NCBI GenBank assembly: GCA_028583405.1
Contig: CM053243.1
Coordinates: 34,561,420-34,625,419, forward strand
Length of the DNA: 64,000 nucleotides
Direction: 5' to 3'
Source of the DNA: Pogonophryne albipinna
Taxonomy: Eukaryota; Chordata; Actinopteri; Perciformes; Artedidraconidae
The stretch's first letter is position 1; each line of letters opens with the position of its first letter. A model generated the notes under the pieces. It did not search any database and was not told the origin of the DNA. It was given only the letters and a program-made list of their open reading frames with translations. The position numbers and the translations under genes are program-made. Of the stretch, positions 4,149-60,323 are shown piece after piece.

Positions 4149-4153
4149 CAACT

Positions 4154-25950: not shown

Positions 25951-27059
25951 AAGAGGATAACAGAGTATGTTTTTATATATATATATATATATTTTTTTTT
26001 TTTCACAACAGTTGTATTTGGATGGAATGAATACCTATAGTGATAATTCAAAGTAATAAAATGATTTTTACAGTGAAAAAGTTCAAATGGAACTGATGGT
26101 TCCCAAATTACCCAGAGGTGAGTCCGCCTGGACTTTATTTTTCTAAACCTCTCTAAAAAGACGACGCTGAAGTTGGCTTCCGATTCAGGGCATCCGATTC
26201 GGCAGTTAAGGGGAAAGTTAAGGGACATTTAATTTACAGCGCTGAGCGAACAATCCTCCGTGTTTGAACCTCTTAAATCGCTGCATAGCCGATTTATTTG
26301 GACTGGATTGTCCCAGAGAGGCTAAAGATTCTTTATAACCCAGTTTGAGATTTGTGAAACCTTGATTCTATTTGTGAAAATACAAACAAGGGAGATTTCA
26401 GTGCTTTTTTCGCATCCTGACCACATTAGACCAGGTCCTGACCTAAAACAAATAGACCTACACTCATCAAATCTGGACTGGATTATCCCAGAGGGTCTAA
26501 AGATTCTTTATAACACAGTTTCAGATTTGTGAAACCTTAATTCTATTTGTGAAAATACAAACAAGGGAGATTTCAGTGCTTTTTTTACATGTAGACCACA
26601 TTAGACCAGGTCCTGATCTAAAACCACTAGACCTACACTCATCAAATCTGGACTGGATTATCCCAGAGAGTCTAAAGATTCTTTATAACACAGTTTCAGA
26701 TTTGTGAAACCTTGATTCTATTTGTGAAAATACAAACACAGGTGGAAGGCTGAGGCTGCTGCAGCAGGCCAGGATCAGGATCAGAAAGTGAACCTCCCAG
26801 CTGGGCAAGCCTTTATGCCTTCTTGAGGCTCCGCCTCTAGATGGGCGGGCACAAACAGGACGACACTCCCAGTACCTGCCAGAGGACAGCAAGGCAGAGA
26901 GCACAGACAGGCAGAAGGGGGAGGGGTCGTCACAACATGTTCTTTTGTTTTGTTTTATTGTTCTGTCTTTTTATTTATTTAAGTATTCCAGTAATGTATG
27001 TTGCATGTTTTAATTTGATTGTATTTACTTGTTTAAATGAAATTTGCTTTAGGTTCACT

Positions 27060-27180
27060 TATAAAATCTGTCCAGGGACAACAGATGAAAAATAGCCTCT
27101 TGGCTAACTCTGGCACATTTACAGGAATGTTAATTAATGTGCACTTTCCCTGTTAAACAAATGAATAAATAAATAAAAAT
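27060..27180 (+). repeat. retroposon 3' tail within the left arm
   Basis: CAGGGACAACAGATGAAAAA-type sequence, then TAATGTGCACTTTCCCTGTT and AATAAATAAATAAA. The same tail is inverted at 46930-47055 in the right arm, so it predates arm formation. A related tail ends the SINE at 40001-40110. Confidence 0.6.
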
Positions 27181-27518
27181 AAGTGTATGCTCCTCATTTA
27201 GGTGATAATTCTTGAGCTACAAAGTTTTCGTATCTAAATTACCGTTTCATAGCAAACAAAAAAATGAAAGAGATGTTAAAGGAATTCAGGTTCATGAGAT
27301 AAAGAAAAAGGCTAACCTTCAGTCTTTCATCCACTTTGAACAGCTTCTGCTGCTTTGTCCTAAAGCAAAATATGAATAGCAATTATTTTCTGAGAGAGAA
27401 GACAGGATTACAATGAACCAACTTTCTCATACCATTGTTACCAAAGTGTTATTTTCTAATCTTGTAATGTCTTTCACATTCCAAGCAATCCTAGTACTCA
27501 AGATGACATACTGTAATT

Positions 27519-28034
27519 GTGACCCGCTCTATCGAAATCAGTCGGAAGTCGCAACGGCTCATTTCAAAATAAACGTGGATTTACGTAAAAAACTATTTTT
27601 TCGGGGTTCGGGTGTTTTGTTTGATTTTAAACAAACAAAGTCTTGGCTTTCAGAATATGAAACTTTTATTTCCAAAATCACATGATAAATACATTTTTGA
27701 AGCTTGTAAAGGGACTCGCAATCTGCTTCCGCAGCGCCGCCCCCTCCCTCCGGCTGACATTATGAATGTAAGAGTATAGTAATCATAGATAACACGGCAG
27801 GGTCCGTTACAGTTTGTTTTCATCTGATTTCAAATAAACAAAGTCTTGGCTTTCAGAATATTAAACTTGTTTCGGCAAATTCAGAGGATAAATACAACTT
27901 GGAAGCGTGTAACGGCATAATTACAAGCGGAGAACGGAGTAACTTAACGTCACTGCAGGCATAACAACAGCCGGTGTTTCTCGTGAGTGTTTTCCCCGGG
28001 AAACAAACACAATACTCACAAACGCAAAATTACA

Positions 28035-28075
<41 letters not shown>

Positions 28076-28383
28076 ATACACACACACTCGCGAGCTTCCC
28101 CTCCAAACGAAAATATCTTCCCTCCGTAGTATTTTGATAATTTGCTCCGCTAATAATCAATCAGATCGATGGATTCCAGAGAAGAGAAAACTTTGAAGGC
28201 CTTTTTCTCAAAATGATGACTCGGTGACAGTCATTATATAATGTGACATATTTCGCTTAATATTTGGAGTACAACAACAATCCTGATATCATTAGAAAGC
28301 TAGGAATCTCCTCTTTCCAACAGTGTATACAACTCAAAATGTGTCTTCGGGTCAATGCGACTGATTTCGATGGAGTAGGTCAC
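27519..28383. mobile_element. 865-bp DNA transposon with AATT duplication (superfamily unknown)
   Basis: The ends are GTGACCCGCTCTATCGAAAT and, inverted, GTGACCTACTCCATCGAAAT; CAGTC follows both. AATT flanks both sides (27515-27518, 28384-28387). The opposite arm has a single AATT (46604-46607) at this point, so insertion is proven internally. It contains a ~210-bp internal repeat (CAAAGTCTTGGCTTTCAGAA at about 27638 and 27839) and a (CA)n tract at 28036-28072. Confidence 0.85.
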
Positions 28384-28592
28384 AATTAGGCAAACAAAGC
28401 TTGTTGCTTAAAGTAAACTTGAACAATGCTAGTTATAGACTATATTTAATTTCCTGTTGAAATGTTTTGCCTGCAACTGTAAATACATTAAGTCTATATA
28501 AGTATACCTACTTATCTGTTGAATTTTTATTTGCAACAAAAAATTATAATAAATTTGAGAAGTAAAGACTTTATTCTTCCTTAATTAGCTTT

Positions 28593-29097
28593 TGTAGTGG
28601 AAATGTCATATTTCAGCTTATATGTCTTATGTTACCTTATATGCTAAACCAAATGCTTCTCATAACATTGTCTAAAACACCTATATCATTTCCTGAGATG
28701 TGCTGTCTTCTTCTCATACTCTAATGTGGGTTTTTATTCCCAAGCGCTTCAAGGCCACACAGCTGATTTGGCAGACTATGTTGAGGCTACTCCTCTTTAA
28801 CCAAAGTCTCCCTATTCTGAGACACTATCTACAGCTCAAGGACAGGTGTCTAATAACAATGAGACCATGTGAAGACAGATTTCTGAACTTCCCTCCCTTT
28901 CTTGTATATAAGCTTTGCTATTTTATTATATCTGCGCACACTCCTGCAGACTATCCTATACTCTGTGAGACCTGTGTCTTTGAATATATTCAAATAAATA
29001 ACCAGAAAGACAACTCTGTTTGTTTCACCATTTATTTGTTGATCACTCTGACTTGTGTATCTCCACCGTATTGACTGGGTCTAAGATTTCCATAACA
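28593..29097 (+). repeat. 5' LTR of the endogenous retrovirus
   Basis: Starts TGTAGTGGAAATG and ends CCATAACA. TATATAAG at 28915-28922 and AATAAA at 28993-28998 mark the promoter and poly(A) signal. Confidence 0.9.
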
Positions 29098-29512
29098 ATT
29101 GGCGCTGCGAGCAGGGTCTCTGCAAGTTCGATTGGGGACACCTACGGACGCTGGGGGTCGCGCTCCAGGATCCTCGGATCCTCCTCTACCTCGACAGAAA
29201 CCGTATGGGACGAGAGGACCAGCGCCGGGGGTGGAACCGATTGACTTCACGAGATCCAACGAACTCAAAAGGCTTTCAATACTCGGTGAGATGTACAGTG
29301 TCTAAATTGTTTAAAGTTAAACGTAATTAAACTCCATGACATTTATGAGAGGGACTGCTCGAAAGTAGGATATTTGGGATATCCGTCGTAGCCTGGGTTT
29401 ACGATCAGTTTTTGTGTGATTTGTACGAAAACAAATATCACATCACCGACGGGTGACAACGAGTGTTTTGATAAACACGGAGTGTTTTAGGTAACACTTT
29501 AAAGACTTTGTT

Positions 29513-30400
29513 ATGGGAGCAAAGCAGAGTACGGGAGTGTTTTAGGTAACACTTTAAAGACTTTGTTATGGGAGCAAAGCAGAGAAGGGGGCTGGTATAC
29601 TCCTCCTGAGGGTCCGATTGTAGATGTCATGCGAGCAAACCACGGTGAAAACAGTCTGTCTAAATTAAATATCTGGACGGAAATGTTCGGATTTCCAAAG
29701 GGAGGTTCTTTCAGTAAATTAAAAATCAAAAACCTAAGGGATAAAATTACAAGAGTGTGAAGATGGAATGAAAAAGAAGAGTAAAGTAAAAGACTTATAA
29801 AAAGCTGGACACTCACAGAAAGTGTTTATAATAGCCTACTGGGAGGATGAAGCAGAATGCCGTGAAAGAAGGCAGTTGGCCTCGGGGCATTAAAGAAAAT
29901 ATTAAGGTTGAAGATGAATGTGAATAAAAGAAGGGAAATAAATTATTTCCAAAACCATGTAAAACCCAGACATCTCTGTGTCCTTCCATTGCAGGCTGGC
30001 TGGCCCACCTCAACCACCTCCACCGCCACTACAAGCCCCAGCCATGCAGTCAACAGACTCCCCGTCAACTCCAAGTTCGTCCACCCCCATCAGCCCCAAG
30101 TAGATGGGGACAACAGCGGGATAAACAAACCTGATGCCCAAGCAGGTGTTTGGGGGACACCTCAGTAATGCCTTTCTCAATGGACTCACAGACACAGCGC
30201 AAGCTACGCAGAATGCTGGCCGCTCACAATACCGAGGGAGAGGCAGAGGAGGTTTTCCGAGGCAGAGGACGAGAAGCAAGACCTTCATTTGACGAAAGAT
30301 GTTTCAAGTGAGGCAGTGTTGAACATTGGATTCTGGGACTGCTCACAGAACACTGGCAGTGGAGGCAGAGGGGGACAGCAAGGACGGGGCCATTCACAAT
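29513..30400 (+). pseudogene. gag: retroviral gag pseudogene
   Basis: Gag forms the virion core. The start at 29513 reads MGAKQS, with the glycine needed for myristoylation. A 55-bp tandem duplication (about 29481-29590) repeats this start. Downstream, matrix-like coding is shared among several frames with many stops. A single CCHC-type knuckle can be traced near 30290-30345, but its second cysteine position is a TGA. A (CA)n tract (30486-30520) lies just after. The gene is thoroughly inactivated. Confidence 0.65.
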
Positions 30401-30483
30401 CAGACTGACCTACACCAGATGGGGAGGAAGGGGCCCGATCGAGCGAGACGGAAATTCAGCCAGCAGCATCTGAACAGGGAAGT

Positions 30484-30522
<39 letters not shown>

Positions 30523-30559
30523 CATGCCATTGAGTAATTGGAAAATGTAGAAGACACAT

Positions 30560-32210
30560 TCTGTGGTAAAAAGGGCAGATTTGCCTGATTGCAAATTTTG
30601 TGGTAGATTTATTCACTCAATAGGAGCGGCTAGGGTAACTGTAAAGGAGAAGTTTTTGTATCACTTCAGAGTAAAGATAACGGTGATGACAGTCATCCAT
30701 TTCCCACATCAGTCAAAAACAGTTTTCTTTTATCATCTGTTCTGCCCAATAAATTTACTGGGCAGAGATCCGATTCTCCGGTTCGGCTTAGACCTCATTT
30801 TTCCACAAATGAGGGTCTTAAAGTCCGACAGCCATCTCCTACGATTGTTCAAAAACTGGCATTTGATGATAAAGAACTGGTGAATGTGTACCAATGGCTG
30901 CTGACATATCCTGATTCTCAGGCGTTGTTGCGTTTGACTGATCAACGTGTTTTTCCACCTGCTGTGTTCATGGAGACTTCTCATTTGCATTGTACTGCTA
31001 ACGTTGTTGATGATCCGTGTAAATGCTATGATGAGAGTTTTCTGTTAGAATGTGTGAATGATGAGCTCATGCTTAAAACTATGTATTGGAGTTTGCTGCG
31101 CAGAGCTGGTTCCTGATACACTCACACCCACACAACACAAGCTGTGTCAAATCCCAGGGGCGGTCCACACATTTCACTAGCCAGGGGCCCCACTGATAGA
31201 TAGAGGGATTTGGGTCCAATCGTTAAAGATTGGGAGTCAGTCACTGATTGGTCACCTACACACACAGAATATGTCATGTACTCTATGTCACGTGACATGT
31301 ATAAGATGAAAATCTGCACGAACGTAGCCGTTCTGCGCACATTGCTGTTGGTTGAGGAGGATGACGTTGGTGATGCCATTTGTCCACCTTTACGGGTAAT
31401 TCTCATATCTCTGAGCTTCCTGCCGCGCTTTCAGATGTGCCATACTCACTCTGGGCAGCTCACAGATATGACGTAGGTTTAATGTCCACGTTCCGTCCAA
31501 ACCCCAGTACCCATTGAAACGTGAAGCTGTTGATGGCATTCGGCCAGTGTTTACCTCTCTGCTTAAACAAGGGGTCATTATTCCGTGTAACGATTCCGGT
31601 ACGCACTCCAGTGTTTCCTGTCAAAAAGATCAGAGACAAACCTCCTGACGAGTGGAGATTTGTCCAGGATTTACGAGCTCTAAATGCAGCTGTGCATGCA
31701 CGCTCGTCCCCGAATCCTTATCTGATTATTTCCCTCTGCAGCATTTTTTTTTACTGTCATAAGATCTCTCAAATGCATTTTTCAGTGTTCCTGTACACAA
31801 AAACAGTCAATTTTGGTTCGCATTTGAATATAATGGTAAACCTTACACATTCACACGTTTGTGTCAAGGCTACTGTGAATCTCCTACTGTGTACAACCAG
31901 GCATTGTGTACAAGGTTGGCCTCTCTCCAAGTTTCTAAAGGCACCGCTCTCATCCAGTATGTTGATGACCTCATGATTTGCGCACCCACAGCAGAACAGT
32001 GTGGAGCTGATACCATTTCCTTATTAAAACACCTCGCAGACGAGGGCCACAAGGCCAGTTTGTCAAAACTCAAATATGTACAAAGAACAGTTACATTTTT
32101 GGGTCATGTCATTTCAGGAGAGGGGAAAGCGCTTTCAGATAAGCGTATTGCATCATTGGCTACTCTGCCAAAACCTGTCACTAAGCGACAGATGATGTCA
32201 TTTTGACGTA
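30560..32210 (+). pseudogene. pol: retroviral protease and reverse transcriptase, broken
   Basis: A protease end (NLLGRD motif at about 30740-30770) is followed after stops by the RT fingers (WRFVQDLRALNAAV at about 31650) and palm (QYVDDLMICA at about 31950-31985). At least three frames are needed from 31500 to 32206. Reading stops at 32204-32206, just before foreign DNA begins. The style of the palm and thumb motifs resembles epsilonretrovirus-like elements of fish. It cannot yield an active enzyme. Confidence 0.75.
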
Positions 32211-32216
32211 TGTGTT

Positions 32217-34345
32217 CATAACACACGGCTGTTGTTATGCTTGCTGTGATGTTACATTAGTCCGTTCTCTGTTTGTAATTATGCCGTTACAAGCTTCAAA
32301 GTTGTATTTATCATCTGAATTTGCCGAAACAAGTTTAATATTCTGAAAGGCAATACTTTGTTTATTTGAAAACAGATGAAAACAAACTGTCTTTTATATA
32401 AAATTGAAGTATTATACAAGTAAAACTACATTTTGCTTTAATCCCAGGTAATTGTAGAATGAACACAGTCTTCCTTTGAAGATGTATAAGTCAGGTGTCT
32501 TGAGGAGTCAGAATTACCTACAAATCATTGTACACACTTGTAAATATTATGTTCCACTTGTTACCATTGTGAGTCTATTTTTATGCAGCTCTGCGTGATT
32601 TTGTAGCTACAATTCAGACTAATACACTACCAGAGGTGGAATAAGTACTCAGATATTGTACTTGAGTAAAAGTACAAGTACTCAGATCTTGTAGTGAAAT
32701 TATAGGTACTCAGATCTTGTACTTGAGTAAAGGTAGAAGTACCAGAGTGTAGGAATACTCTGTTACAGTAAAAGTCCTGCATTCAAAATGTTCCTCAAGT
32801 GAAAGTAGAAAAGTATTCTCATCTAAATATAGTGAAAGACAGTAAAAGTAGTCGTTGTGCAGATTGGTCCATTTCAGAATAATATATATGATATGTTTTA
32901 TAATGATTGATCATTAAAGTGTTCTCAAAGCTGGTAAAGGTGCAGCTAGTTTGAATGACTTTGTAGACTGCAGGGTAGTTGGTGGATTTACTCCAGGTGG
33001 AACTAAAGTCTGATTTAACACTTGATTAGATATTGCATCATTCATCCACATCATTCTGTGATGTAACTAAAGTTATTAAATACATGTAGTGAAGGAAAAG
33101 TACACCATGTACCTCTGACTTATGTTCACTGCCAACCTAAAAGTACCTCAAAAATAGTAATCAATGATGTATTGAAAAGTTATCTGGCTGATTGTTTTAT
33201 ATCAGCTCAGCCAGGTTATATGGGAGGCCCAGTCTACGTACACTCTAAAAAACAATGCCTTGGCTTAACAAAGGAAATCAAAGCAATAGGTTGCATCGAT
33301 GGTTATTGAGTTAAGACAACTTCTAATGAAATTGTGTTAAAGCAACAAAGTTATTTGAGTTAGGGGAGAAGGCTTTTCCTCTACAATCAGAGGTGTTTTC
33401 AAATACCACTTACTTAATAATTGGTAGCATAAACACAAGTTTTTAAGTTGATTACTCCAAAAGTTCCAACTTGTTTTACCGTATGATTTAAATGTAATAT
33501 TAAGTTGTATGTACTTAATTACCACATGTTGAACATGAACACATGTTTTTAAGTTGACAACCATTTATAAATTAAGTTGCTCCAAATAATATTGTATTCA
33601 ATAGGGTTTTTCTCTTAGCTTTTTCATGTTTTTGCCTTTAAAGAAAGAAATTAATTGATTCCACAACAAAAATATTAGGCAATTCACTTTTTATTTTTGA
33701 ACTGCAGTTGTTTATTTCAACACATGATGTTTCAATCAGGAGAGTTTGAATTTAAAGTTGTATTTGAATGACAAAAGATGACACTCACCTTAAAATGTCC
33801 TTTGTATATTTCTATTTGTCTTAACTGTGGGAACTTGTCCAGGCATCTTAAGTGGGAGTGGACTTGAAATCCTTAACTCAAGGTGTAGAACAATTAAGTT
33901 ATCAAGCCAATTGCATTACTTACTTCAACTTGAATTTAGTTTGAAGTCAATTAACGCAGAAATCAGAGTTCAAATGACACAATATTAAGTTGATGTAATT
34001 ACCAACATTATTACGTCAACACAACTTATAAATTAATGTTTGCAACTTAAAATGTTTATCTAAATCAATTAACTCACATTTTTATCTTGGAACCATGCAT
34101 TTAATTAAGTGGAGGTGAAAGGTCCCCTGAATTCGTTTTTAGACGTACAGATCACTCATTTTGAAATATTAAACTTAGTTTTCTTTTCTTTAATTTTTCA
34201 TCCTCGTGTAAAATGCTATCACATTGGGTTGTTTATAGCATAAAGAACATCTGATTTAATGTGAGGTAGGGAAATAATCATTTGAGTATGTGCATATAAA
34301 TATGTAATTTACAACAGCTGTAGGATGCTGGAAAAGGTTGAAAAG
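32217..34345. repeat. block of other repeats inserted in the retroviral pol
   Basis: It contains a minus-strand fragment (32222-32393) of the AATT transposon at 27519-28383. Next comes a hAT-like left end (CAGAGGTGGAATAAGTACTC from 32634) with TACTTGAGTAAAAGTAC words. From about 33240 there is an AT-rich stretch beginning TACACTCTAAAAAACAATG and filled with TTAAGTTG motifs. The RT connection region is missing, so this block replaced or displaced it. Confidence 0.6.
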
Positions 34346-34359
34346 TGCTTGAATTTGAC

Positions 34360-35663
34360 TTTGGAAAAGGTGTAAGAACCCTCTTATGCCTTTGCCTGAA
34401 GACGGTGACGAACACGACTGTGTGCACACCTAGACCGGACTTAAAGGACGTTCCTCTGACCAACGCTGACCTCATTTTGTATGTTGATGGGTCTGCCTTT
34501 CGCGACCAAGGGGGCACTAATCGGGTGGGTTTTTCTGTTGTTTCAGATTCTGCTGTACTCCGTTCCGGACCAATCCCATGTCACCTCTCAGCACAAGCAG
34601 CAGAGCTCATCGCACTAACTGAAGCCTGCACGTTTGCAGAAGGCAAAACTGTGACTATATACACTCACGTTATGCTTTTGGGGTAGTACACAATTTTGGG
34701 GCTATTTGGAAGTGTAGACAATTTCTGAAATCTGATGGCAAACCAGTACTTAACCATGTACTGATTCCTCTCGCACCTCACGCACACTCATTTGTTAAAA
34801 TCCCAGTCTCCTCCTTCTATCACAAAATGTTGTCACTGACTTCCATGCAGCAGCTAGCTACACCAGTTGAGAAGGCTCAGTGGAAGGCTGATGGGGCTGT
34901 TTTTGACCCAACCTCCAGCACCTGGGTTGGTCCAAATTCCAATCCATGTCTCCCAAGACATTTCTTCCCTCATTTTGCTAAGTTGACACATGGGTTGGAT
35001 CATGTGCCTCCCACCAGGCCATTTGAGCACCTAATGCTGGATTTCATTGAGCTTAGCCCATCAGAGGGTAAGAAGCACTGTCTGGTGGTGGTTGACATGT
35101 GGTCCAAATGGGTTGAAGCTTTCCCAGTAAAAGCACAGACAGCAAATGCTGTTGTGCTTATCATCCACAGAGTGGGGGTGGGGTGGAAAGAGAGAACGGC
35201 ACAATAAAAACCAAACTAGCAAAATGCTGTGCAGACACAGGTCTGTCATGGACACAAGCTCTGCCCATTGTGCTGATGTACATGCAGAAGGAAAAGAACA
35301 CGGAGCCAACTCAGCCCATTTGAAATCCTTTTTGGGGCTCCTCCACAGATTGGACTCAAGGCTCCAGGATGTCCTCTTCCCTCCACAACTTTGTGTGAGG
35401 ATGCTATGTTGTCATATTGTGTTAACCTGTCATCCACTTTAGCAGCCTTGCCTACCCCTGCCACTGGTCCACTTCACCATCTCCAACCCGGCAACTTCGT
35501 GCTGGTCAAGGATTTCCGGAGAAAGAGCTGGAAATCCAATCATTGGCAAGGTCCCTACCAGGTGCTCCTCGTCACCCAGACAGCGGTCAAGGTCGCCGAG
35601 AGAGCTACGTGGGTCCACGCCAGCCACTGCAAGGTCGTAGTCACAGGAAAGGAGAAACGGTAG
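34360..35663 (+). pseudogene. pol: retroviral RNase H and integrase, broken
   Basis: RNase H is recognisable from YVDGSAF (about 34478) to AQAAELIALTEAC (about 34595-34640). A frame change follows near 34665. The integrase core shows the first catalytic aspartate in LMLDFIEL (about 35030) and VVVDMWSKWVEAFP. A deletion/frameshift at about 35155-35190 removes the second catalytic aspartate region. Reading resumes in ERENGTIKTKLAKC and ends with a C-terminal DNA-binding-like domain (about 35480-35640). It is non-functional. Confidence 0.75.
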
Positions 35664-35966
35664 AAGCAGACGACAACAAGTGACGTGTCCTAGTCACCAA
35701 CGGAGACGACAACAAGTGACGTGTCCAAGTCACCACCAGCACCACACTTGCACTACATACACCAAAACACACTACACACAAGGTGTCACGAGCGAGTGCC
35801 AGCTGAGCGGTTCCATATGCCTCTGGTTCCTCGTTTGTGTTACCAGTGTGCGGAGTCTGACTGTCCGTGTCACAAACTCGACCGATGGAATACACACACA
35901 CCCCATGGAGCATTCCCGCCTCGTGATGAGGGCTCGCCTGGAAAGACGACAATGCAACCGTGAGCA

Positions 35967-36221
35967 ATGTGCGGATACTACTGGAGAGTCTGGACAATCA
36001 TAGAATGGTTCCTCTGCATATTTGCCCTGGCGATCATTTTCGGCCTATTAATCAGTTGTACCTGTTTGATTATCCCAATACTGAAGAAGTGCGTTTCCAG
36101 CATGGTATCCTCAGCTTTCGTTCAGTATGCTGCTATTCCATTACAGGGCAATCCTTTGCGCCACAGTGAGATAGACCAGATAGAATCAGAAGAGTCTGAT
36201 TTCGACACTACAATATAATCC
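35967..36221 (+). pseudogene. env: retroviral env remnant: transmembrane C-terminus only
   Basis: A single hydrophobic segment (about 20 residues, starting near WFLCIFALA) followed by a short cysteine-containing cytoplasmic tail and a stop matches the end of a retroviral transmembrane subunit in form and position, about 190 bp before the 3' LTR. Between 35663 and 35967 no surface subunit or fusion region is visible, so env is almost entirely deleted. Confidence 0.6.
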
Positions 36222-36412
36222 ATGTGTACCCTCCTCTTATGCTTACATTATATTGGAGTCTGTCCTCCACAAAAACAGCCAGTTTTCTATGATATATTTG
36301 TGATGTGTTTACTTAAACCAGCGATGGAGTGTATTCATTGATGTGTTCTATCAGTCTGTCCTGTCATTTGGTTTATTTTCATGATTGATCAAGTATGATC
36401 AAAAGGGGGGAA

Positions 36413-36917
36413 TGTAGTGGAAATGTCATATTTCACCTTATATGTCTTATGTTACCTTATATGCTAAACCAAATGCTTCTCATAACATTGTCTAAAACAC
36501 CTATATCATTTCCTGAGATGTGCTGTCTTCTTCTCATACTCTAATGTGGGTTTTTATTCCCAAGCGCTTCAAGGCCACACAGCTGATTTGGCAGACTATG
36601 TTGAGGCTACTCTTCTTTAACCAAAGTCTCCCTATTCTGAGACACTATCTACAGCTCAAGGACAGGTGTCTAATAACAATGAGACCGTGTGAAGACAGAT
36701 TTCTGAACTTCCCTCCCTTTCTTGTATATAAGCTTTGCTATTTTATTATATCTGCGCACACTCCTGCAGACTATCCTATACTCTGTGAGACCTGTGTCTT
36801 TGAATATATTCAAATAAATAACCAGAAAGACAACTCTGTTTGTTTCACCATTTATTTGTTGATCACTCTGACTTGTGTATCTCCACCGTATTGACTGGGT
36901 CTAAGATTTCCATAACA
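36413..36917 (+). repeat. 3' LTR of the endogenous retrovirus
   Basis: The same 505-bp length as the 5' LTR. Differences seen: TTTCACC for TTTCAGC, CTCTTC for CTCCTC, and CCGTG for CCATG. TATATAAG lies at 36735-36742 and AATAAA at 36813-36818. Confidence 0.9.
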
Positions 36918-38066
36918 ATTTCCATACTTACCCGATTTGATGAGTGTAGGTCTAGTGGTTTCAGATCAGGACCTGGTCTAATGTGGTCTACATGTGAAAA
37001 AAGCACTGAAATCTCCCTTGTTTGTATTTTCACAAATAGAATAAAGGTTTCACAAATCTGAAACTGTGTCATAAAGAATGTTTAGACCCTCTGCGATAAT
37101 CCAGTCCAGATTTGATGAGTGTAGGTCTAGTGGTTTTAGATCAGGACCTGGTCTAATGTGGTCTACATGTAAAAAAAGCACTGAAATCTCCCTTGTTTGT
37201 ATTTCACAAATAGAATAAAGGTTTCACAAATCTGAAACTGGGTTATAAAGAAACTTTAGACCCTCTGGGATAATCCAGTCCAGATTTGATGAGTGTAGGT
37301 CTAGTGGTTTTAGATCAGGACCTGGTCTAATGTGGTGAAGATGCGAAAAAAGCACTGAAATCTCCCTTTTTTAAATTTTCACAAATAGAATAAAGGTTTC
37401 ACAAATCTCAAACTGGGTTATAAAGAATCTTTAGACTCTCTGGGATAATCCAGTCCAAATAAATCGGCTATGCAGCGATTTAAGAGGTTCAAACACGGAG
37501 GATTGACTGCGGTCAAGCCTGCCTCCACTCTGGAAAACCTGGTCAAGCCAGCCCGCACGTGATATTGCGGTGCGCGAATATCCTATTCATTACGGTAGAG
37601 TTCTGGAAACACTGCCTCTGTGTTAAGATGAGAATAAAACAAAAACTGTCCAGTATCAAAGACTCATCTCACTCCAGGGTGATAGCAGGACACCCCATCT
37701 AGTCACTTAGAAACAATCAGGACATTCTGATGTACAGTTTCAAAATAAAAGACCTTTGAAGTCTCATATATGAGCTATCATCCCTGTTTTTAGATGAGAA
37801 TAAAACAAAAACTGTCCAGTATCAAAGACTCATCTCACTCCAGGGTGATAGCAGGACACCCCATCTAGTCTCTCAGAAAAAATCAGGACATTCTGATGTA
37901 CAGTTTCGAAATAAAAGACCTTTGAAATCTCTATTGTATGAGCTATCATCCCTGTTTTTAGATGAGAATAAAACAAAAACTGTCCAGTATCAAAGAGTCA
38001 TCTCACTCCAGGGTGATAGCAGGACATCCCATCTAGTCACTCAGAAAAAATCAGGACATTCTGATC
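36918..38066 (+). repeat. left inverted arm, inner part
   Basis: Three copies of the 175-bp unit in the opposite orientation to those at 26295-26735 (TTTGATGAGTGTAGG at 36936, 37111, 37285). Then the boundary sequence, a ~110-bp spacer with CACGTGATATTGCGG, and ~2.6 copies of a 166-168-bp unit (AGATGAGAATAAAAC at 37626, 37792, 37960). Confidence 0.9.
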
Positions 38067-38180
38067 CTTTGCCACTCCACGTTATCATTGTAACTCAATC
38101 TTGAAAATGACACCGTTAATAATTTTGCAAACGATGTCATCACTATCACTGAAGTGAGCCATCATGAACGAACTTATGCT

Positions 38181-38211
38181 AATCATAAATCTATCGATTA
38201 GATTTATGATT
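38181..38211. repeat. perfect hairpin, 13-bp stem
   Basis: AATCATAAATCTA, loop TCGAT, then the exact inverted TAGATTTATGATT. It lies in the foldback core, 115 bp after the tandem array. Confidence 0.85.
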
Positions 38212-39451
38212 CGAAAATAATAAAAGTAGGGTAGACATGTGGATATTATCCGGATGAACAGGTTCGTTCCACAGACCTTATTTCCAGCTATTTTCCAAAA
38301 CCCGATGGAGAAATCTCATTGCTTTCTGTCGAGGGAATCCGAGCGCAGCTTACTTCCGGGTTTTAGGACGCGTCACTGCACCACTTGCATAGACCTCACA
38401 GCGGGCGGAACTTGTCATAAAGTCCGCGAAAATAAAGCCCGCCCATTTAGAGGGAAGATATGATTGGTCAATTGTACTGTCATTTGACATTACTCTCTCG
38501 TTGAGTTACTATAGCTGGCCCTCTGTGAATGTAGAGGGACCAACGAGCTCTCCCGTCTTCACAGTAACTCGCAGAGACGGCATTTAACCCTTCACATTCC
38601 AACAGAAACTGAACAGGCAGATTCGAAAGGATTTATTTATTTGGAAATGTTATTTTAAATACAATTAAATCAAGTTATTTTGGTAAAACTAATGAAAAAT
38701 GTACCAACAAAAAATATTTAAAAAAATATTTAAAAAAAAAGTTTTTTTTATGTTTTCAAATATTATTTTTTAGAATATCTTAGGCCCTCACAGAGGGTCT
38801 AGAGGGCCCTGACGGCTCGCCACTGGTGCAGTTTCACAGGATAACGAACCTCAACCTGAAGAACCACTTTTACGCGGAGTTGGATCGGCATGCTGTTGAG
38901 CTTGTTCAGGAAGAAGGCGGCACGCAAAGGCGAAGTGTCTGAAGTTCAGCTCTTCACCGCCTATGACCTCCAGGTGAGTCGGTTAAGCCTCTTGGTGTTT
39001 TATTATCATACTAGAGTGGATTTTCTGTGTGTATGTTGGGGGGCAGAGGGTCAGCCTGATAGATTTAGATTTATTATTAAGATACTTGTGTTTGGGGAGG
39101 GAACAGCAGTGTTAATGTTATTGCACCTTGTTTTTGTGCTAATGTGATACAGGTGGGATCGCAGACGCCTCAATTGCTTCAAAATGGTAATCTCTTCAGT
39201 CATGGAAGAGCCCTTGTGATATAAATTGTTGTGTGGCTATGCTGTTTAGCATCCAAAGTAAAACAAAGATATGTTTTCGCACTCAAGGATCAAGGTGACG
39301 TCCATAGCCGACGTGCTGCTCTCCTCCCTGCCTGGATTTCTGCATGAGGATGACTTCAGGTTTCTGAGGCTGTGGCATGTAAGTCAGCATAATAACTGTT
39401 TTGAATGTATGTGACAGATCATCAAAAAATATAGTTTATCTTATAAATACA

Positions 39452-39490
39452 CATGCACACACATGCACACACACAAACATGCACACACAT

Positions 39491-39537
<47 letters not shown>

Positions 39538-39554
39538 AACAGACACACATACAA

Positions 39555-39593
<39 letters not shown>

Positions 39594-39690
39594 CAGACAC
39601 ACACATGCACACACAGGCACACACACACATACACACACAGATACACACACATACACATACACAAACTTACACACACATAGACACATTTCC
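39452..39690 (+). repeat. (CA)n-rich compound microsatellite
   Basis: Long CACA runs mixed with ATGCAC, ATACA and AGACA steps, inside an intron of the pseudogene. Confidence 0.95.
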
Positions 39691-40000
39691 TTACATGGGA
39701 GGTTACAATAGTGTCATATGCTAATAACTTTGTTTCCTACTGTGTGTTTCAGCTGGGATGTCAGGATTTGGTGCTGCCCATTACCACCAGCTCCAGGCCC
39801 CACAGCTACAGGCCCCACAGCAAGCAAGTACAAGTACTGGTATGATGCCCTACTCTTTCACTACACTAACGTTTTGAGAGACGGGGACACAGAACTCAAT
39901 GAATACTATTTGACATATGTATGACTTACAATTCAGATTTTGTGTTCAGACATCCTGTGGTAGTTGACAACAATATGCTGGAACATTTAATTTGATTGTT

Positions 40001-40293
40001 TATTTGATGAGGGACAATGCACATTAATGAACACTTTAGACAGGTTATGTTTCCAGTGTAAATATGCCGGATTATAGCTTTGAGCTAATTTCCATCCGTA
40101 GTCCCTGAGCAATGGGAGTGAGGGGGGGAAGGGGGATGTCCGGTGCCTTGCTCAAGGGCACCACGGCAGGGCAGGAGGTGAACTGGGACCTCTCCAAGTA
40201 GAAGTCCACACTCCATATTTTTAGGTCTGGTCGGGGACTTGAACCGGCGACCCTACAGTTCCCAGTCCAAGCCCCTACTGACTGAGCCACTGC
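40001..40293 (-). repeat. tRNA-derived SINE (minus strand)
   Basis: On the minus strand the head shows an A box-like TGGCTCAGTCAGTAGGGG (from about 40290) and a B box GGTTCAAGTCC (about 40236-40246). Then come the conserved CCCTTGAGCAAGGCACC and a LINE-like tail ending in AATAAA. It lies in an intron of the pseudogene. Confidence 0.75.
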
Positions 40294-42654
40294 AATCAGG
40301 TTATGTTGCTACTCCCAAAGTATAGTGAAATATAACTAATGATTTTGTTTCTACAGGGATATCGGGAATGGGATACGGCTCGGTGCAGTACACCCCCACA
40401 ACGTGCACAAAATGGTTTGCCATTGTATTCCTCATTAATGAACCCAATTTACTACTAAAATGTAAAGTAATATCTTTGTAGGCAAATCAAATCACACTAG
40501 TCGTGTTTTTTGTGTAAATGTTACAGCATTTGTGTTTCCCTCCTCTAGACTTCTTTAGAGGAAACTGCCACCAGTTTGATCCCATGCTGGTCATGGTTGC
40601 AATGGTAAGTGAACAAGACGATCATCTAACATTTGTAGACATTTTCTGATCTGTGTGTGTGTGTGAAAAGTTTAAATCTCTATATTCTGATGATGATCAT
40701 TGCTCTCTTCTTTGTTCATCTGCCTTCTTTGATTGAATACTTTATCAACAGTTTGAAAAAAGTACAGGGGCACAGTTATACAATAATGCTAAAAGCCAAG
40801 GATAACAAAAAGCCCTGAATGCTTGTTTCCATTGTGGTCCTGTGTATTCAATTAATCTGTATGAGTTCTCTCTCCTGATAGGATACTGAAAATGCCTTTT
40901 CTGTTTACCAAAGAGCTGTAGGGAAGGGGAGATCCCTGTTACTGACTAAACACTTGATCACAATATATTCACACACACACACACACACCTAATAACCTTT
41001 CAAAATGTGTGCAGAATGTTTGCGTTTTACAGATGGAACCACACAGATGCACGGCGATGACACCAGGCTGCTTTTGAAAGGCAAGTCTATTAGACTTAGT
41101 GTAATTCCTCATGAGTCATTTGCAGGTTATTTTCAATTCTCACTTTACACTTTTCAATTATGTTTTTCTTAAGACATTGTCATCCAGAAGATGACTTCAA
41201 TGCTCGCTGAAGTACTTGTGGTGGTAAAGGGCCTGTCCAGAGATGTGCAGTTCATCAAGAATGAGTTGGCAGAGGGCAACATGACCCCGGCTGGTAGTCA
41301 GGGACCAGGGTCAGCCACATATGTTCCCCATCCAGCTGCCAATCGCCAATGAAGACGGCTTCAATGAGGCTGAATCATTGCTGAAGAATGAATCAGTCCG
41401 TCAAAAGATGGTAATTTGACAGACTGAACTGCATTCATTTATGAAATGTGGATAATATCAGTGCGGTCAAAATGTGCTTAGTTATTGCCCTTTAGCTACT
41501 CAACCACAAATAATTCTAGTCTTAGCTACTCAACCACATATAATTGTAGTAACATTTACATCTAACATTTATATTGACATGACCAAAATTGGGACACCAG
41601 GGTTAAAGTGGTTAAACATAACGACTGGCATGAACTTGACTGAATACCATGGGCTGGAATATCAGTGTATCAAGTGTATAAAAAACAAAGTTGGTCTCTG
41701 TGTATGAAATAAGAGTGCTGTTGTGCTGTTTCTAACGTATGTCCCACAGAACGTAGCTCAATACAACAGTTAAAGCAGTGGCCTATTTGTTTCTCTCGTC
41801 TGATTTAGATTGCTTGTCTGGCTCTGGTAGGAGGCACCAATTCAGAGAACCTGATCAGACGGATGCTGACAACTGCTCTGACTAACGCCTTAGCCTTAGG
41901 CTGGAAAGAAAGACAAGCGTTGCAGCAGCAAGAAGCCATTCAAGGAACCGGCAATACAAGACTGCATGTTTGGTGAGTTTCCTCCCCTGCAAACTACTTA
42001 TTAGCTTAAGTTTAGGGAGTGAGGTGTGACTGATGGTGATTCAGAACATAATTATGCTCTTTGTGAGCCATATAGTACCAACTACCGAGTTTGAATCCAA
42101 CTCCTATAATGTATTTTATGTCTCTTCTCTGCCCTTGTTTCATGTCTCTCTGTAATCCCCTGTTGAAGAATAAAGCATGAACTTAATCTAATAAAAAAGG
42201 TTAGGTTGGAATCAGGTGATGGTGAAGCGATAAGAAATAAACCAAAAAAAGACAACCTAATTGGTGAGCTTTAGAGGTGCTCGGATGCAAATGTTATTAC
42301 CTGGATAGAGCCAGGCTAGCCGTTTGCTCCTCTTTCCAGTCCAGTCTTTTAGCAAACTGGCTGCTGACTGTATCTTGTGTTACTGTACAGAGTGAGAGTG
42401 ATTTTCTTATTATAACAGAAGTTGTATGGGATACACACACTCTCTCTTCCTCACGCTTATTTTTGTAATCTTGTCTTTCAGCTGCTGCTCGGCAGTTCGA
42501 CCGCAAGCTGACCCACAATTGCTTCAGTGAAACTGTGAAGAAGTGGCTTCGTTATGCTCCAGAGCGCGAGGGAGGCATCCCAAGGAACACAAGTGAAACG
42601 AACACAAGTGAAACCAAGTCCAAGTCCAACTTAGGGTACCCCACCACACTCTAA

Positions 42655-43270
42655 TGTGTTTTCCTTGTGCATACAGTACAAAGGTTACCGCCTCATAGAC
42701 AATACTGTTCTTTCATGGACAATAGACTGTTGTTCTTACAGTAAAAAATAAGTCAAATGTTTACAGCTTCGCCTTCATGGAAGACTTGAAGCTTCAGGCT
42801 GTTCTTGTTTGGAGTTGCATCAATGGTTCTTACACACCCTCTTTTTTTATGGGGGTATCTTGTGTCACTGTATATTTGCACATACGATGTGTCTTCTGCA
42901 TTTATTCCACAGCGTTTGGGGAGCAATAACGGGTTAAGAGTCTTGCTCAGGGACGCATTGCTGCCTGTTTTCTAAAATAAATTTGAATATTAAAATCATG
43001 TTTTCTGTCATTTTTAGTTTGATTTCATACATTTTGGGAAATATGGTAATTCAAGGTAATTTTGAACAAGCTAATGACAATCGTCTGCCAACAATACATG
43101 GTGTAGTGTGTGTTTACAAGTTTGGACCACTTCATTCAGTACAGTATTGATGTTGCACTTGTTAATGGTCTGTTAAGATGTAGACCTATACGCAGAAAAG
43201 TCATTGGTGAAAAACATTCACTTTTTTAATGTGTTACAGTATGCTTAGAAAAGTTGAATATTTTAATGTA
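42655..43270. other. no recognised feature
   Basis: Downstream of the pseudogene. AATAAA near 42978 could be its poly(A) signal; otherwise nothing is identified. Confidence 0.4.
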
Positions 43271-43281
43271 AGTTTTACATT

Positions 43282-43690
43282 TAGATTTCCATTTAGATGA
43301 TGGTTGAATCAATATTGATTCCTAACACTGATTCAATATAAAATCAACTAAAATCTATATGTAGATTCCCATTTGGATGATGGTTGAATCAATATTGATT
43401 CCTAACACTGATTCAATATAAAATCAACTACAATTTACATGTAGATTCCCATTTGGATGATGGTTGAATCAATGTCGATTCCTAACATTGATTCAATGTA
43501 AAATCAACCAAAAATGTGCATGTAGATTCCTATTTAGATGATGGTTGAATCAACATTGATAGTGTCAGTTATGGTTGAAAGTCCAACGTTTATTCAACAT
43601 TAAAACAATTTGCGCTTTCTGTTTATTTTCAATGTCCGGGTTTCAACATGGATTCAATATTTCTGCCTAACCATATTTCAACATTGATTC
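43282..43690. repeat. ~81-bp minisatellite within a DNA-element-like repeat
   Basis: Four units containing GATGATGGTTGAATCAA at about 81-82-bp spacing (43297 to 43555). TTCAACATTGATTCA words follow, with an end GCTATCTGG. The words are partly self-complementary (TTGAATCAA, TTGATTCAA). Confidence 0.75.
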
Positions 43691-43896
43691 ACTCATATTT
43701 TGCTATCTGGTTAACCTGCAAGTTGCTCTTTAAGTGGTCGTTTGGCTTTTCTTATTCATTTCTCACCTGGCCATCTGCATAAAAGTACAGAATGCTGAAA
43801 TCACTGGATGGGTTAACTAAATATAATTCAAATGTATCTATAGATTCCTGGATCTGACGGAGTTTGAATGGAGGACAACAAATTGAAATCCAGAAT

Positions 43897-43898
<2 letters not shown>

Positions 43899-43978
<80 letters not shown>
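43899..43978 (+). repeat. (GA)n microsatellite
   Basis: About 40 GA units. Confidence 0.97.
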
Positions 43979-43980
<2 letters not shown>

Positions 43981-44339
43981 ACATATACTTCTTTTCGAAA
44001 GCACCTCGTTTAATGTTAAATGGTCTAACTAAAATATCGCCTCCAGGATCAGTTTTGTTTCTTTTACTTTCATATAATTACAGAAGAAGTACTGTTGTGA
44101 TTTTGTATTTGAATTGGTCTGTTGTATTGGAATCTGTTATGAACTGTCCAATTGAATCTGTTATGAACTGTTGTATATATATATTTTATGAACTGTTGTA
44201 TTGTAATCTGTTTTTTTTATATTGAATTTAACATTGAAATCAAATCAATAAACATATTTTATTTAAATTGTATCCCGGTTGTTGTTTATCGTTTCAGGGA
44301 CAGTAGCACGAGACAAGGATCTAAAAGTTTTCAAGTTTG

Positions 44340-44412
44340 TATCTTCTTGGTCGAATGCACTTATTGTAAGTCGCTTTGGATAAAAACGTCAGCTAAATGT
44401 AATGTAATGTAA
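44340..44412 (+). repeat. L2/SINE 3' tail
   Basis: GTAAGTCGCTTTGGATAAAA, then GTCAGCTAAATGTAATGTAA, a very common fish retroposon terminus. Confidence 0.75.
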
Positions 44413-44742
44413 AAGTGGGTAAAGATAAAACTGCAGTAAGATACTGTTTTAATGCATACACTACTGTAAAGTTATACTGTATAAACTACAGTAATGTATT
44501 TTTTTTTCACAATACAAGTATTGTATAATCACAGTAAAATATTGTTTTTGAGATTACAGCAACCTACAAAATTACAGTAATGTTTGTACTAGTGTTTTTT
44601 AAATATTTTGAGATTTGGTTGAGCAGGGTATACTTGTACTTTTACTAGTCCTTTATTAGAGATGTGTCTGTTGTTTGTGTTTATTTTTAGTGTCAGGATG
44701 TAACCCTTGTCTTTTTCTCTGCAAACAGAATCTACCTACGGG

Positions 44743-44950
44743 TACAAATAAATAACCTGAACCTGAATCTGAACCTGAAAGTAAAAATACAGTACTGATT
44801 TTATTACTGTAAACTAAATACAGGATCGCTACTGTAAAGTAAAAATACAGTACTGATTTTATTACTGTAAACTAAATACAGGATCGCTACTGTAAAGTAA
44901 AAATACAGTAACTTGTTGGCAACTTTGCTGCCAGTAATTTACTGTAAAAT
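44743..44950 (+). repeat. LINE tail plus 58-bp tandem repeat
   Basis: AATAAATAACCTGAACCTGA tail, then GTAAAAATACAGTACTGATT at 44781, 44839 and (partial) 44897, period 58. Confidence 0.8.
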
Positions 44951-44969
44951 CCCCTGTAATTTTTTTAAC

Positions 44970-47961
44970 AGTGTGGAGTGAGATGAGTCTTTGATACTGG
45001 AAAGTTTTTGTTTTATTCTCATCTTAACACAGAGGGATGATAGCTCATATATGAGACTTCAAAGGTCATTTATTGTGAAACTGTACATCAGAATGTCCTG
45101 ATTTTTTCTAAGTGACTATATGGGGTGTCCTGTTATCACCCTGGAGTGAGATGAGTCTTTGATACTGGACAGTTTTTGTTTTATTCTCATCTTAACACAG
45201 AGGGATGATAGCTCATATATGAGACTTCAAAGGTCTTTTATTTTGAAACTCTACATCAGAATGTCCTGGTTTTTTCTGAGTGACTAGATGGGGTGTCCTG
45301 CTATCACCCTGGAGTGAGATGAGTCTTTGATACTGGACAGTTTTTGTTTTATTCTCATCTTAACACAGAGGGATGATAGCTCATATATGAGACTTCAAAG
45401 GTCTTTTATTTTGAAACTGTACATCAGAATGTCCTGATTGTTTCTAAGTGACTAGATGGGGTGTCCTGCTATCACCCTGGAATGAGCTGAGTCTTTGATA
45501 CTGGACAGTTTTTGTTTTATTCCCATCTAAAAACAGGGATGATAGCTCATATATGAGACTTCAAATGTCTTTTATTTTGAAACTGTAAATCAGAATGTCC
45601 TGATTTTTTCTGAGTGACTAGATGGGGTGTCCTGCTATCACCCTGGAGTGAGATGAGTCTTTGATACTGGACAGTTTTTGTTTTATTCTCATCTTAACAC
45701 AGAGGCAGTGTTTCCAGGACTCTACCGTAATGCATAGGATATTCGCGCACCCCAATATCACGTGTGGGCTGGCTTGACCAGGTTTTCCCGAGTGGAGGCT
45801 GGCTTGACCGCAGTCAATCCTCCTTGTTTGAACCTCTTAAATCGCTGCATAGCCGATTTATTTGGACTGGATTATCCCTGAGAGTCTAAAGATTAATTAT
45901 AACACAGTTTGAGATTTGTGAAACCTTTATTCTATTTGTGAAAATACAAACAAGGGAGATTTCAGTGCTTTTTTTACATGTAGACCACATTAGACCAGGT
46001 CCTGATCTAAAACCACTAGACCTACACTCATCAAATCTGGACTGGATTATCCCAGAGGGTCTAAAGTTTCTTTATAACCCAGTTTCATATTTGTGAAACC
46101 TTTATTCTATTTGTGAAAATACAAACAAGGGAGATTTCAGTGCTTTTTTTACATGTAGACCACATTAGACCAGGTCCTGATCTAAAACCACTATGCCTAG
46201 ACTCATCAAATCTGGACTGAATTATCCCAGAGGGTCTAAAGTTTCTTTATAACCCAGTTTCAGATTTGTGAAACCTTAATTCTATTTGTGAAAATACAAA
46301 AAGTGAGATTTCAGTGCTTTTTTCACATGTAGACCACATTAGACCAGGTCCTGATCTAAAACCACTAGACCTACACTCATCAAATCGGGTAAGTATGAAA
46401 AGCTAATTAAGGAAGAATAAAGTCTTTACTTCTCAAATGTATTATAATTTTTTGTTGCAAATAAAAATTCAACAGATAAGTAGGTATACTTATATAGACT
46501 TAATGTATTTACAGTTGCAGGCAAAACATTTCAACAGGAAATTAAATATAGTCTATAACTAGCATTGTTCAAGTTTACTTTAAGCAACAAGCTTTGTTTG
46601 CCTAATTACAGTATGTTATATTGAGTACTAGGATTGCTTGGAATGTGAAAGACATTACAAGATTAGAAAATAACACTTTGGTAACAATGGTATGAGAAAG
46701 TTGGTTCATTGTAATCCTGTCTTCTCTCTCAGAAAATAATTGCTATTCATATTTTGCTTTAGGACAAAGCAGCAGAAGCTGTTCAAAGTGGATGAAAGAC
46801 TGAAGGTTAGCCTTTTTCTTCATCTCATGAACCTGAATTCCTTTAACATCTCTTTCATTTTTTTGTTTGCTATGAAACGGTATTTAAGATACGAAAACTT
46901 TGTAGCTCAAGAATTATCACCTAAATGAGGAGCATACACTTATTTTTATTTATTTATTCATTTGTTTAACAGGGACAGTGCACATTAATTAACATTCCTG
47001 TAAATGTGCCAGAGTTAGCCAAGAGGCTATTTTTCATCTGTTGTCCCTGGACAGATTTTATAAGTGAACCTAAAGCAAATTTCATTTAAACAAGTAAATA
47101 CAATCAAATTAAAACATGCAACATACATTACTGGAATACTTAAATAAATAAAAAGACAGAACAATAAAACAAAACAAAAGAACATGTTGTGACGACCCCT
47201 CCCCCTTCTGCCTGTCTGTGCTCCCTGCCTTGCTTTCCTCTGGCAGGTACTGGGAGTGTCGTCCTGTTTGTGCCCGCCCATCTAGAGGCGGAGCCTCAAG
47301 AAGGCATAAAGGCTTGCCCAGCTGGGAGGTTCACTTTCTTATCCTGATCCTGGCCTGCTGCAGCAGCCTCAGCCTTCCACCTGTGTTTGTATTTTCACAA
47401 ATAGAATTAAGGTTTCACAAATCTGAAACTGTGTTATAAAGAATCTTTAGACTCTCTGGGAAAATCCAGTCCAGATTTGATGAGTGTAGGTCTAGTGGTT
47501 TTAGATCAGGACCTGGTCTAATGTGGTCTACATGTAAAAAAAGCACTGAAATCTCCCTTGTTTGTATTTTCACAAATAGAATTAAGGTTTCACAAATCTG
47601 AAACTGTCTTATAAAGAATCTTTAGACCCTCTGGGATAATCCAGTCCAGATTTGATGAGTGTAGGTCTAGTGGTTTTAGATCAGGACCTGGTCTAATGTG
47701 GTCAGGATGTGAAAAAAGCACTGAAATCTCCCTTGTTTGTATTTTCACAAATAGAATCAAGGTTTCACAAATCTCAAACTGGGTTAAAAAGAATCTTTAG
47801 ACTCTCTGGGATAATCCAGTCCAAATAAATCGGCTATGCAGCGATTTAAGAGGTTCAAACACGGAGGATTGTTCGCTCAGCGCTGTAAATTAAATGTCCC
47901 TTAACTTTCCCCTTAACTGCCGAATCGGATGCTCTGAATCGGAAGCCAACTTCAGCGTCGT
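44970..47961 (-). repeat. right inverted arm of the foldback element
   Basis: Reverse complement of the left arm. Order: ~4.4 copies of the 166-168-bp unit (GAGTCTTTGATACTGG at 44985, 45152, 45320, 45488, 45655), spacer, boundary sequence, ~3 copies of the 175-bp unit (45850-46390), a single-copy stretch, ~2.7 copies of the 175-bp unit (47380-47850), then boundary and tip. It lacks the retrovirus and the AATT transposon seen in the left arm. Confidence 0.9.
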
Positions 47962-48341
47962 TCTAAACAGGTCAAATTTAACTTGTTTTGCAATATCAAT
48001 CTTGATACAGGGTACTTATTATATGTTATAGTTTGGATTCCTAAAGCTTTTAGTCTACTAACCCATCATTCAAGGGTGGTTTTTACTATAAGTAATGTTT
48101 TTTTTTTAGGCGGACATTAGAATTTACATGTTTTTACTATGTTCCATCTGAATTTACTTTAAAATAAAAACATCTATATTGATTCTGACACTTCTACATC
48201 CAACTCACAGATGTAACCTTGCTTTGAGAGAAAAGATTATTAATTTACCCCTTTTAGAAGTGAAGATATAGTCTTTGTTGTGTTAGTGGCATTTTCGAGC
48301 CTGAAACCTGAAAAAAAAAGGCTCAGGGCTTAAGAGGTTAA

Positions 48342-55113: not shown

Positions 55114-55595
55114 TGTTGTGCACCGTCAAAAGTGTTAATAATCATGTTTCATATTTATGTGTTATTATTGCTCACTTCCTGTTTTGTTTGTTTCACGCCT
55201 CATTTCAGGTCCCTTGACTCACTTCCCTCATCAGTATCAGCCCCGCCCCTGATTGTGTTCACCTGTGTATGGTTGTTGAGTGTTTAAAGTCCCCAGTCTC
55301 CCAGCATTCAGTGTCAGTTCGTTTTTGTCCTGTCCTCATGCCAGAGTTCTGCTCTTCAGCGTTTGCACTTTTTGATTCAAGCCTATCTTTGCTCCTGAAA
55401 CTTATTATAAGTTTAGTTCCTCACGTTGTGAGCGATTTTCTGTTGTACCTTGTTCAAGCCCTTTTTGTCATCTCGTAAGAGTGATTTTCTTTTGTTACCT
55501 TTTTTTGTACAAATAAAGTATATTAATTATACTTTACCTTTGGCTCCCGGGTCGTGCATTTGAGTCCTTATCCTTGTGTAACCAAGTTCATAACA
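55114..55595 (+). repeat. 5' LTR of gypsy copy 2
   Basis: TGTTGTGCACC to TTCATAACA. The TATA-like TTTAAA (55283-55288) is followed 25-30 bp later by GTCAGTTCGTT (55313), the inferred transcript start. AATAAA lies at 55512-55517. The only difference from the 3' LTR that I found is G at 55170 versus A at 59893. Confidence 0.95.
55283..55323 (+). promoter_or_regulatory. LTR core promoter and inferred transcript start
   Basis: TTTAAA at 55283-55288 and GTCAGTTCGTT at 55313-55323. The start is inferred because these 11 bases are exactly complementary to the sequence next to the LTR (55597-55607), as in self-primed Tf1/sushi elements. Confidence 0.6.
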
Positions 55596-55596
55596 G

Positions 55597-55607
55597 AACG
55601 AACTGAC
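55597..55607 (+). promoter_or_regulatory. self-priming site for reverse transcription
   Basis: AACGAACTGAC begins one base after the 5' LTR and pairs perfectly with GTCAGTTCGTT at 55313-55323. No tRNA-type TGG primer site is present in the 16 bases between the LTR and the gag ATG. Confidence 0.8.
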
Positions 55608-55611
55608 CACA

Positions 55612-60318: not shown

Positions 60319-60323
60319 GCTGC

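Follow-up and report, generated by a model that had tools for sequence, protein, structure and literature searches.

A probable composite foldback transposon with gene exons in its loop in the genome of the fish Pogonophryne albipinna

Within a stretch of 64,000 nucleotides from Pogonophryne albipinna (GenBank assembly GCA_028583405.1, contig CM053243.1, positions 34,561,420 to 34,625,419, forward strand; hereafter the window) we found a foldback-type DNA transposon at 26161-47961. Its left tip, ACGACGCTGAAGTTGGC, starts at base 26161 and a mirror copy finishes at 47961, with 1 mismatch between the two 138-bp tips. The 9-mers outside the tips (TCTAAAAAG on the left and TCTAAACAG on the right) are equal at 8 of 9 positions. 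Inverted ends with such 9-mers had been placed at exactly these bases by an initial annotation. The features of the element are given below in window coordinates, including a nested miniature inverted-repeat transposable element (MITE) and a nested element with long terminal repeats (LTRs).

26152..26160, no strand: left 9-bp target duplication TCTAAAAAG, 8/9 with the right one
26161..26298, + strand: left terminal tip, 138-bp flanking domain
26299..26738, + strand: left outer 175-bp tandem array, 2.5 copies
26739..27518, + strand: left arm spacer, first part
27519..28383, no strand: nested MITE of 865 bp, short inverted ends, flanked on either side by AATT; empty site retained in the right arm
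28384..28593, + strand: left arm spacer, second part
28593..36920, + strand: nested decayed LTR element, gamma-type provirus-like; empty site retained in the right arm
36934..37457, - strand: left inner 175-bp array, mirroring the outer array and followed by the mirrored tip to tip base 91 (37505)
37618..38065, + strand: left 168-bp tandem array, 2.7 copies
38066..38825, + strand: dispersed repeat, about 760 bp long, at the left boundary of the loop
38826..44974, + strand: gene unit of the loop, found dispersed away from foldback arms as well
38826..38973, + strand: SAMD3-like exon between splice-like signals, two reading frames
39280..39378, + strand: second SAMD3-like exon
39753..40605, + strand: first three exons of the DUF4806 gene, edges by eye, holding the 308-bp insert
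41035..42651, + strand: last four exons of the DUF4806 gene (41035-41080, 41173-41416, 41809-41971, 42472-42651), approximate edges, frame breaks
44974..45705, - strand: right 168-bp tandem array, 4.4 copies
45863..46386, + strand: right inner 175-bp array
46398..47383, - strand: right arm spacer, unbroken
47384..47823, - strand: right outer 175-bp array
47824..47961, - strand: right terminal tip
47962..47970, no strand: right 9-bp target duplication TCTAAACAG, 8/9 with the left one

Each arm runs from the 138-bp tip through a 175-bp array, a spacer of about 1 kb, a mirrored 175-bp array and a mirrored tip that ends at base 91; past this mirrored tip the innermost part consists of about 110 bp followed by the 168-bp array. 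The two arms match in three colinear pieces because two later insertions split the left arm: an outer piece (26161-27518 versus 47961-46604; 98.5% identity) whose 1,358 bp are the longest unbroken outer match, a second of 210 bp (28384-28593 versus 46607-46398; 99.5%) and a third of about 1,147 bp (36919-38065 versus 46401-45255; 95.0%). The top inverted match between 24 and 49 kb scored 2,360 bits, compared with 44.6 bits for the best of 20 Markov copies. Long inverted arms holding tandem repeats (175-bp and 168-bp units) agree with the foldback type proposed initially. The proposed arm length of 2.7-3 kb holds for the sum of the three pieces, about 2.7 kb, but the left arm is broken by two insertions that had been missed.

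Both of these insertions, the MITE and the LTR element, landed after the transposon itself, since the right arm keeps both empty sites. The LTR element has LTRs of 508 bp (28593-29100 and 36413-36920; 99.4% identical) and retains decayed pieces of a reverse transcriptase (RVT_1), an integrase core (below its cut-off) and an integrase C-terminus of the murine leukaemia virus (MLV) type; an exact 4-7-bp duplication was sought at its edges and none was found. A third insert, about 308 bp at 39987-40294, lies between exons of the loop and is a later arrival as well, because other copies (L010, L037, L029 and the C18 copy) show the empty site. After removal of the three inserts (8.3-kb LTR element, 865 bp and 308 bp) the element has an own length of about 12.3 kb. 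What had been taken for one very large element thus contains 8.3 kb of nested LTR element and about 1.2 kb of two other inserts. It was correctly described as non-autonomous, with no stop-to-stop frame of at least 120 amino acids (aa) outside the nested LTR element. A 171-bp inverted match (91%) between 27809-27978 in the nested MITE and 32220-32390 suggests a related MITE inside the nested LTR element.

Using the first 300 bases of the element as a probe, we searched the window's own 1.07-Gb assembly and obtained 127 matches to the tip end (best 40 of 379 candidate places scored). Thirty-six stretches around scored tip matches were compared, L001-L008 being unused as duplicate places already covered. 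Target duplications were counted in 21 elements with both tips in reach, the window copy included (L011 and L012 being two ends of one element), and 15 one-tip loci were excluded from this count. The flanking 9-mers were identical in 12 of the 21 and equal at 8/9 in five others, so that 17/21 pairs agreed at 8/9 or better, and none of 420 pairings of flanks from different elements rose above 6/9. Other duplication lengths from 6 to 12 gave no perfect match in any of the 21 pairs. These counts substantiate the 9-bp duplications of the initial annotation, which had also made the breakpoints of further copies its test; the other copies end at the same tip base. Equal ends and target duplications were thus found at unrelated sites, as for a mobile foldback-type DNA transposon, and 26161-47961 belongs to a genuine family of DNA transposons whose insertions create target duplications of 9 bp. 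Element lengths ranged from 529 bp (L014, without duplication) and 711 bp (L020, 8/9) up to 21.8 kb in the window. The 56 best-scored tips showed a mean divergence of 1.36% and a maximum of 5.1%; this low divergence leans towards young copies because the tips were drawn from scored copies. At the 529-bp element (L014:232-760) the right flank opens with a 5-mer that is followed by another tip, as though the junction were common to two copies.

Five solo foldback elements of 2.2-2.4 kb (L028, L030, L035, L043 and L013) ran colinear with the arm up to base 1927-2147, differed in their number of 175-bp units and closed with a full mirrored tip, and both window arms stop at base 91 of the mirrored tip and continue into the 168-bp array. 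By this comparison the 3-kb arm corresponds to a solo element of this common kind minus its inner 90 bases plus the 168-bp array. Two foldback elements framing moved DNA, as in a composite of the Ising type, are therefore present in structure only. Because each arm so nearly equals a solo element, two unrelated solo insertions might also face each other here by chance, in which case the 21.8-kb span was never mobile as a unit. We regard this as highly improbable, since it is the outermost tips that the 8/9 duplication flanks and the inner tips are truncated at base 91. Moreover, at the locus L010, where the left arm is internally deleted, an identical pair of tips encloses this loop and is flanked by a perfect 9-bp duplication of its own, AATTATAGC. 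The presence of this loop between equal tips with different duplications in the window and L010 indicates that the loop-bearing element moved, and these two copies show the whole unit to have been mobile at more than one site.

The loop opens with the 760-bp repeat, which is dispersed in the genome (best 40 of 2,732 candidates scored). In the gene unit that follows, the DUF4806 part had clear DUF4806 relatives in a homology search, with 83% identity to Gymnodraco protein P0001, and its top five protein matches all came from Antarctic notothenioids. A Pfam search of the loop gene gave DUF4806 as the best match with E = 0.01-0.02, below cut-off, and a few weaker matches. The SAMD3-like part had 35 fish and unnamed protein matches, the best at 61-67% (Trematomus, Solea and others), among which notothenioids recur; its label derives from the names that 2 of these 35 proteins carry. 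A protein joining the SAMD3-like and DUF4806 parts was not seen among the 62 matches of both searches, which covered proteins of 0.55-1.75 times the query length, so that a much longer fusion would be invisible. Two proteins that apparently ran past the SAMD3-like part did so by poor alignment only.

By eye, the exons are flanked by splice-like signals with intron-sized DNA between them, and because these introns were kept the gene pieces were probably captured as DNA, without splicing of a transcript. The exon at 38826-38973 requires two frames in both the window and L010, and the exon at 41809-41971 is broken, relative to P0001, at the identical place in both; the window has an additional frame break at about 41320. 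These shared frame breaks indicate that window and L010 carry a common dead passenger. Gene fragments (SAMD3-like and DUF4806 exons) thus lie between inverted ends, the arrangement known from Pack-Mutator-like elements (Pack-MULEs). Neither the arm build nor the gene pieces in the loop had been noticed in the initial annotation.

A probe from the loop (40000-43200) returned 40 places (best 40 of 3,380 candidates scored), and 13 loop loci including the window were examined. Seven of these were bordered, on one side or both, by sequence of the arm or of the 168-bp array (window, L010, C2:21.3M, C2:28.8M, C18:15.9M, C9:13.1M and C3:30.8M). Five had no arms and ran upstream into DNA shared with C12 (C12 itself, C6:25.6M, C1:0.84M, C1:5.7M and C1:37.9M), and the remaining one, C20:11.6M, fell in neither class. 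The arm-free unit has a further SAMD3-like exon upstream (C12), and the C1:37.9M copy terminates at the loop end, base 44974. Since the loop unit also occurs without arms, the cargo is a dispersed unit independent of them. Its high copy number and its presence in all seven arm-context loci, though these were chosen for it, would also suit an accessory gene of the transposon family. We consider such a role unlikely, given the loci without arms, the five solo elements made of arm sequence and the frame breaks that window and L010 have in common. At C12:22521881-22528359 (L051, L052) the dispersed unit joins SAMD3-like and DUF4806 exons outside foldback arms, next to an upstream-edge frame that we take, by eye, to be tyrosine-recombinase-like.

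Neither the frames nor a domain search of the window copy revealed a Mutator-type transposase, and no frame of at least 120 aa was present in the loop. The profile PF10551 matched six places in the genome, all above cut-off at 31-36 bits, two of them without internal stop (L045-L048, L072 set), and the stretches common to the Mutator-domain loci L045-L048 were patchy with ends that were not definable. Two family members were rejected as transposase carriers: in the 15.9-kb element L011/L012 a presumably mariner-like frame and tandem arrays were taken as nested, and in L039 a presumably LINE-like (long interspersed nuclear element) frame was taken as a nested insertion, all judged by eye. With no Mutator transposase linked to the tips, the mobilizing enzyme might be of the Rehavkus or Merlin kind, Merlin being a superfamily with 8-9-bp duplications, or an undescribed one with duplications of 8-9 bp; we regard this as possible but less likely than not. 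The length of the duplication fits the Mutator range of 8-11 bp and also the 9 bp that a table assigns to Rehavkus (both in the portions of PMC6446971 on target duplications). A PHD-finger transposase would be the further mark of Rehavkus. This 2019 survey, in the portion concerned, further describes the evidence for Mutator in chordates as limited and doubts zebrafish records. On the other side, most foldback elements are assigned to Mutator in the relevant part of PMC4079207, and Tm1, as presented in sections of PMC3169594, has a Mutator-like transposase together with 9-bp duplications and foldback ends of composite build. Mutator membership, with the 9-bp duplication and the foldback arms as pointers, is therefore plausible but unproven: the earlier label "Mutator-like" fits by duplication length and arms, but neither the window copy nor the five PF10551 places examined combined a Mutator-type transposase with these tips. 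A young fish family with clean 9-bp duplications offers a concrete handle on the question of vertebrate Mutators.

Taken together, we think it probable that 26161-47961 is a copy of a young foldback family with a composite build, moved as a unit by its outer tips and later invaded. The arm structure and the loop content were observed directly. The window copy is non-autonomous; a transposase from another locus, most likely a Mutator-type enzyme, would recognize its ends in trans. A pair of solo foldback elements of 2.4 kb, arranged as mirror images, probably lost their inner tips and came to enclose the loop, that is, the dispersed 760-bp repeat and the broken, intron-containing SAMD3-like/DUF4806 unit. 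The outer tips moved the whole as one unit, as seen from window and L010, and after insertion at this site the MITE, the provirus-like LTR element and the short insert landed in it, as their empty sites show.

Several observations weigh against this interpretation. Inverted duplication is a route by which arms in this family can grow, and it could account for the mirrored arrays; a tree of 16 spacer rows was a star in which solo and long forms were mixed without order. Four 9-mer pairs were weaker (L015 7/9, L043 6/9, L021 2/9 and L014 1/9), and tip counts and divergence, resting on the scored places, are biased to well-kept copies. Only two of the seven arm-context loop loci, window and L010, had both tips: a tip is damaged at C2:28.8M, a second tip was not found in the compared stretch at C2:21.3M and C18, and the outer ends of the C9 and C3 copies lie outside the compared stretches. 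Finally, no tip was found at the five of six PF10551 places examined (four 3.3-kb loci and C2:47.3M, with wider flanks for C6:5.1M; C14:28.1M was left out), the distance covered being 1.5 kb at three of them and about 4-5 kb at the other two.

The strongest competing account puts the long-armed form first, its arms having grown by inverted duplication, with the 2.4-kb solos as deletion products. Two loci, C9:13.1M and C2:28.8M, each contain a pair of loop copies facing each other across a 168-bp array (L076, C9:13117300-13120300, and L077, C2:28778400-28785100), with self-inverted matches of about 1.1 kb that cover part of each loop, and C3:30.8M (L078, L065) looks alike and is probably a third case. 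These palindromes give weight to an origin by inverted duplication and lower our confidence in the composite reading. Because the inner array of either arm forms a direct repeat with the outer array of the opposite arm, their orientations permit a recombination that would remove the loop and leave exactly a solo element; internal deletions do occur in the L010, C18 and C3 copies, and the star tree is equally at home here. This account would need a separate cause for the mirrored array and the partial mirrored tip (base 91) in both arms, whereas a pair of enclosed solo elements accounts for these directly, and we rate it as a serious but less than even possibility. For the composite build, we put forward only tentatively the wider scenario that a vertebrate composite foldback, perhaps driven by Mutator, spread a two-family chimera with its introns through this Antarctic fish genome in a recent burst while enlarging palindromes by inverted duplication. 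If true, the composite build would provide a natural example of how foldback elements can package gene pieces and spread them in a vertebrate.

Other repeats were present in the window. At 11391-17431 lies a second mirror-image structure, in which a 361-bp array (11398-12476) faces a 357-bp array (15259-17424); its ends are GACTACGCAAATTAGTC, with no matching 9-mers outside. An LTR element occupies 55113-60319, its LTRs measuring about 484 bp and being 99.8% identical; a second copy (99.6%) is represented by its 3' part at the left edge of the window, 1-4152.

By analogy with known systems, the element would work like a composite foldback or a Pack-MULE. A vertebrate foldback family with 9-bp duplications was not met in the literature searched, although one may still be in print. 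The Tetris/DAIBAM elements of Drosophila virilis, as far as the relevant sections of PMC4079207 describe them, are likewise apparently non-autonomous with no transposase found, have long terminal inverted repeats composed of a flanking domain, tandem repeats and an inner domain, and share their tips with a small element. Their tandem repeats are of about 220 bp, their duplications of 8-10 bp, and the Tetris middle has no apparent coding capacity according to the same sections, whereas the fish loop bears gene exons, two arrays (175 and 168 bp) are present and each arm is itself a mirrored solo element. Root-knot nematode Tm1 elements resemble the fish family in that their inverted repeats are composite and contain tandem units, their duplications are mostly of 9 bp and some members are MITE-like. 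In the portion of PMC3169594 concerned, however, their tandem units measure 13-15 bp and a member encodes a Mutator-like transposase, an enzyme not found in the fish family. Like plant Pack-MULEs (as outlined in part of PMC6431247), the element holds gene fragments between terminal inverted repeats, here apparently taken up as DNA with introns kept; unlike them it is found in a vertebrate, its cargo is itself a dispersed repeat, and its Mutator link is putative. As in the composite Ising transposable element (TE) of D. melanogaster, treated in another part of PMC6431247, the DNA between two foldback elements is mobile as a unit, but Ising spans hundreds of kb compared with about 12 kb here, and the fish unit has lost its inner tips, is present at several places and belongs to a vertebrate.

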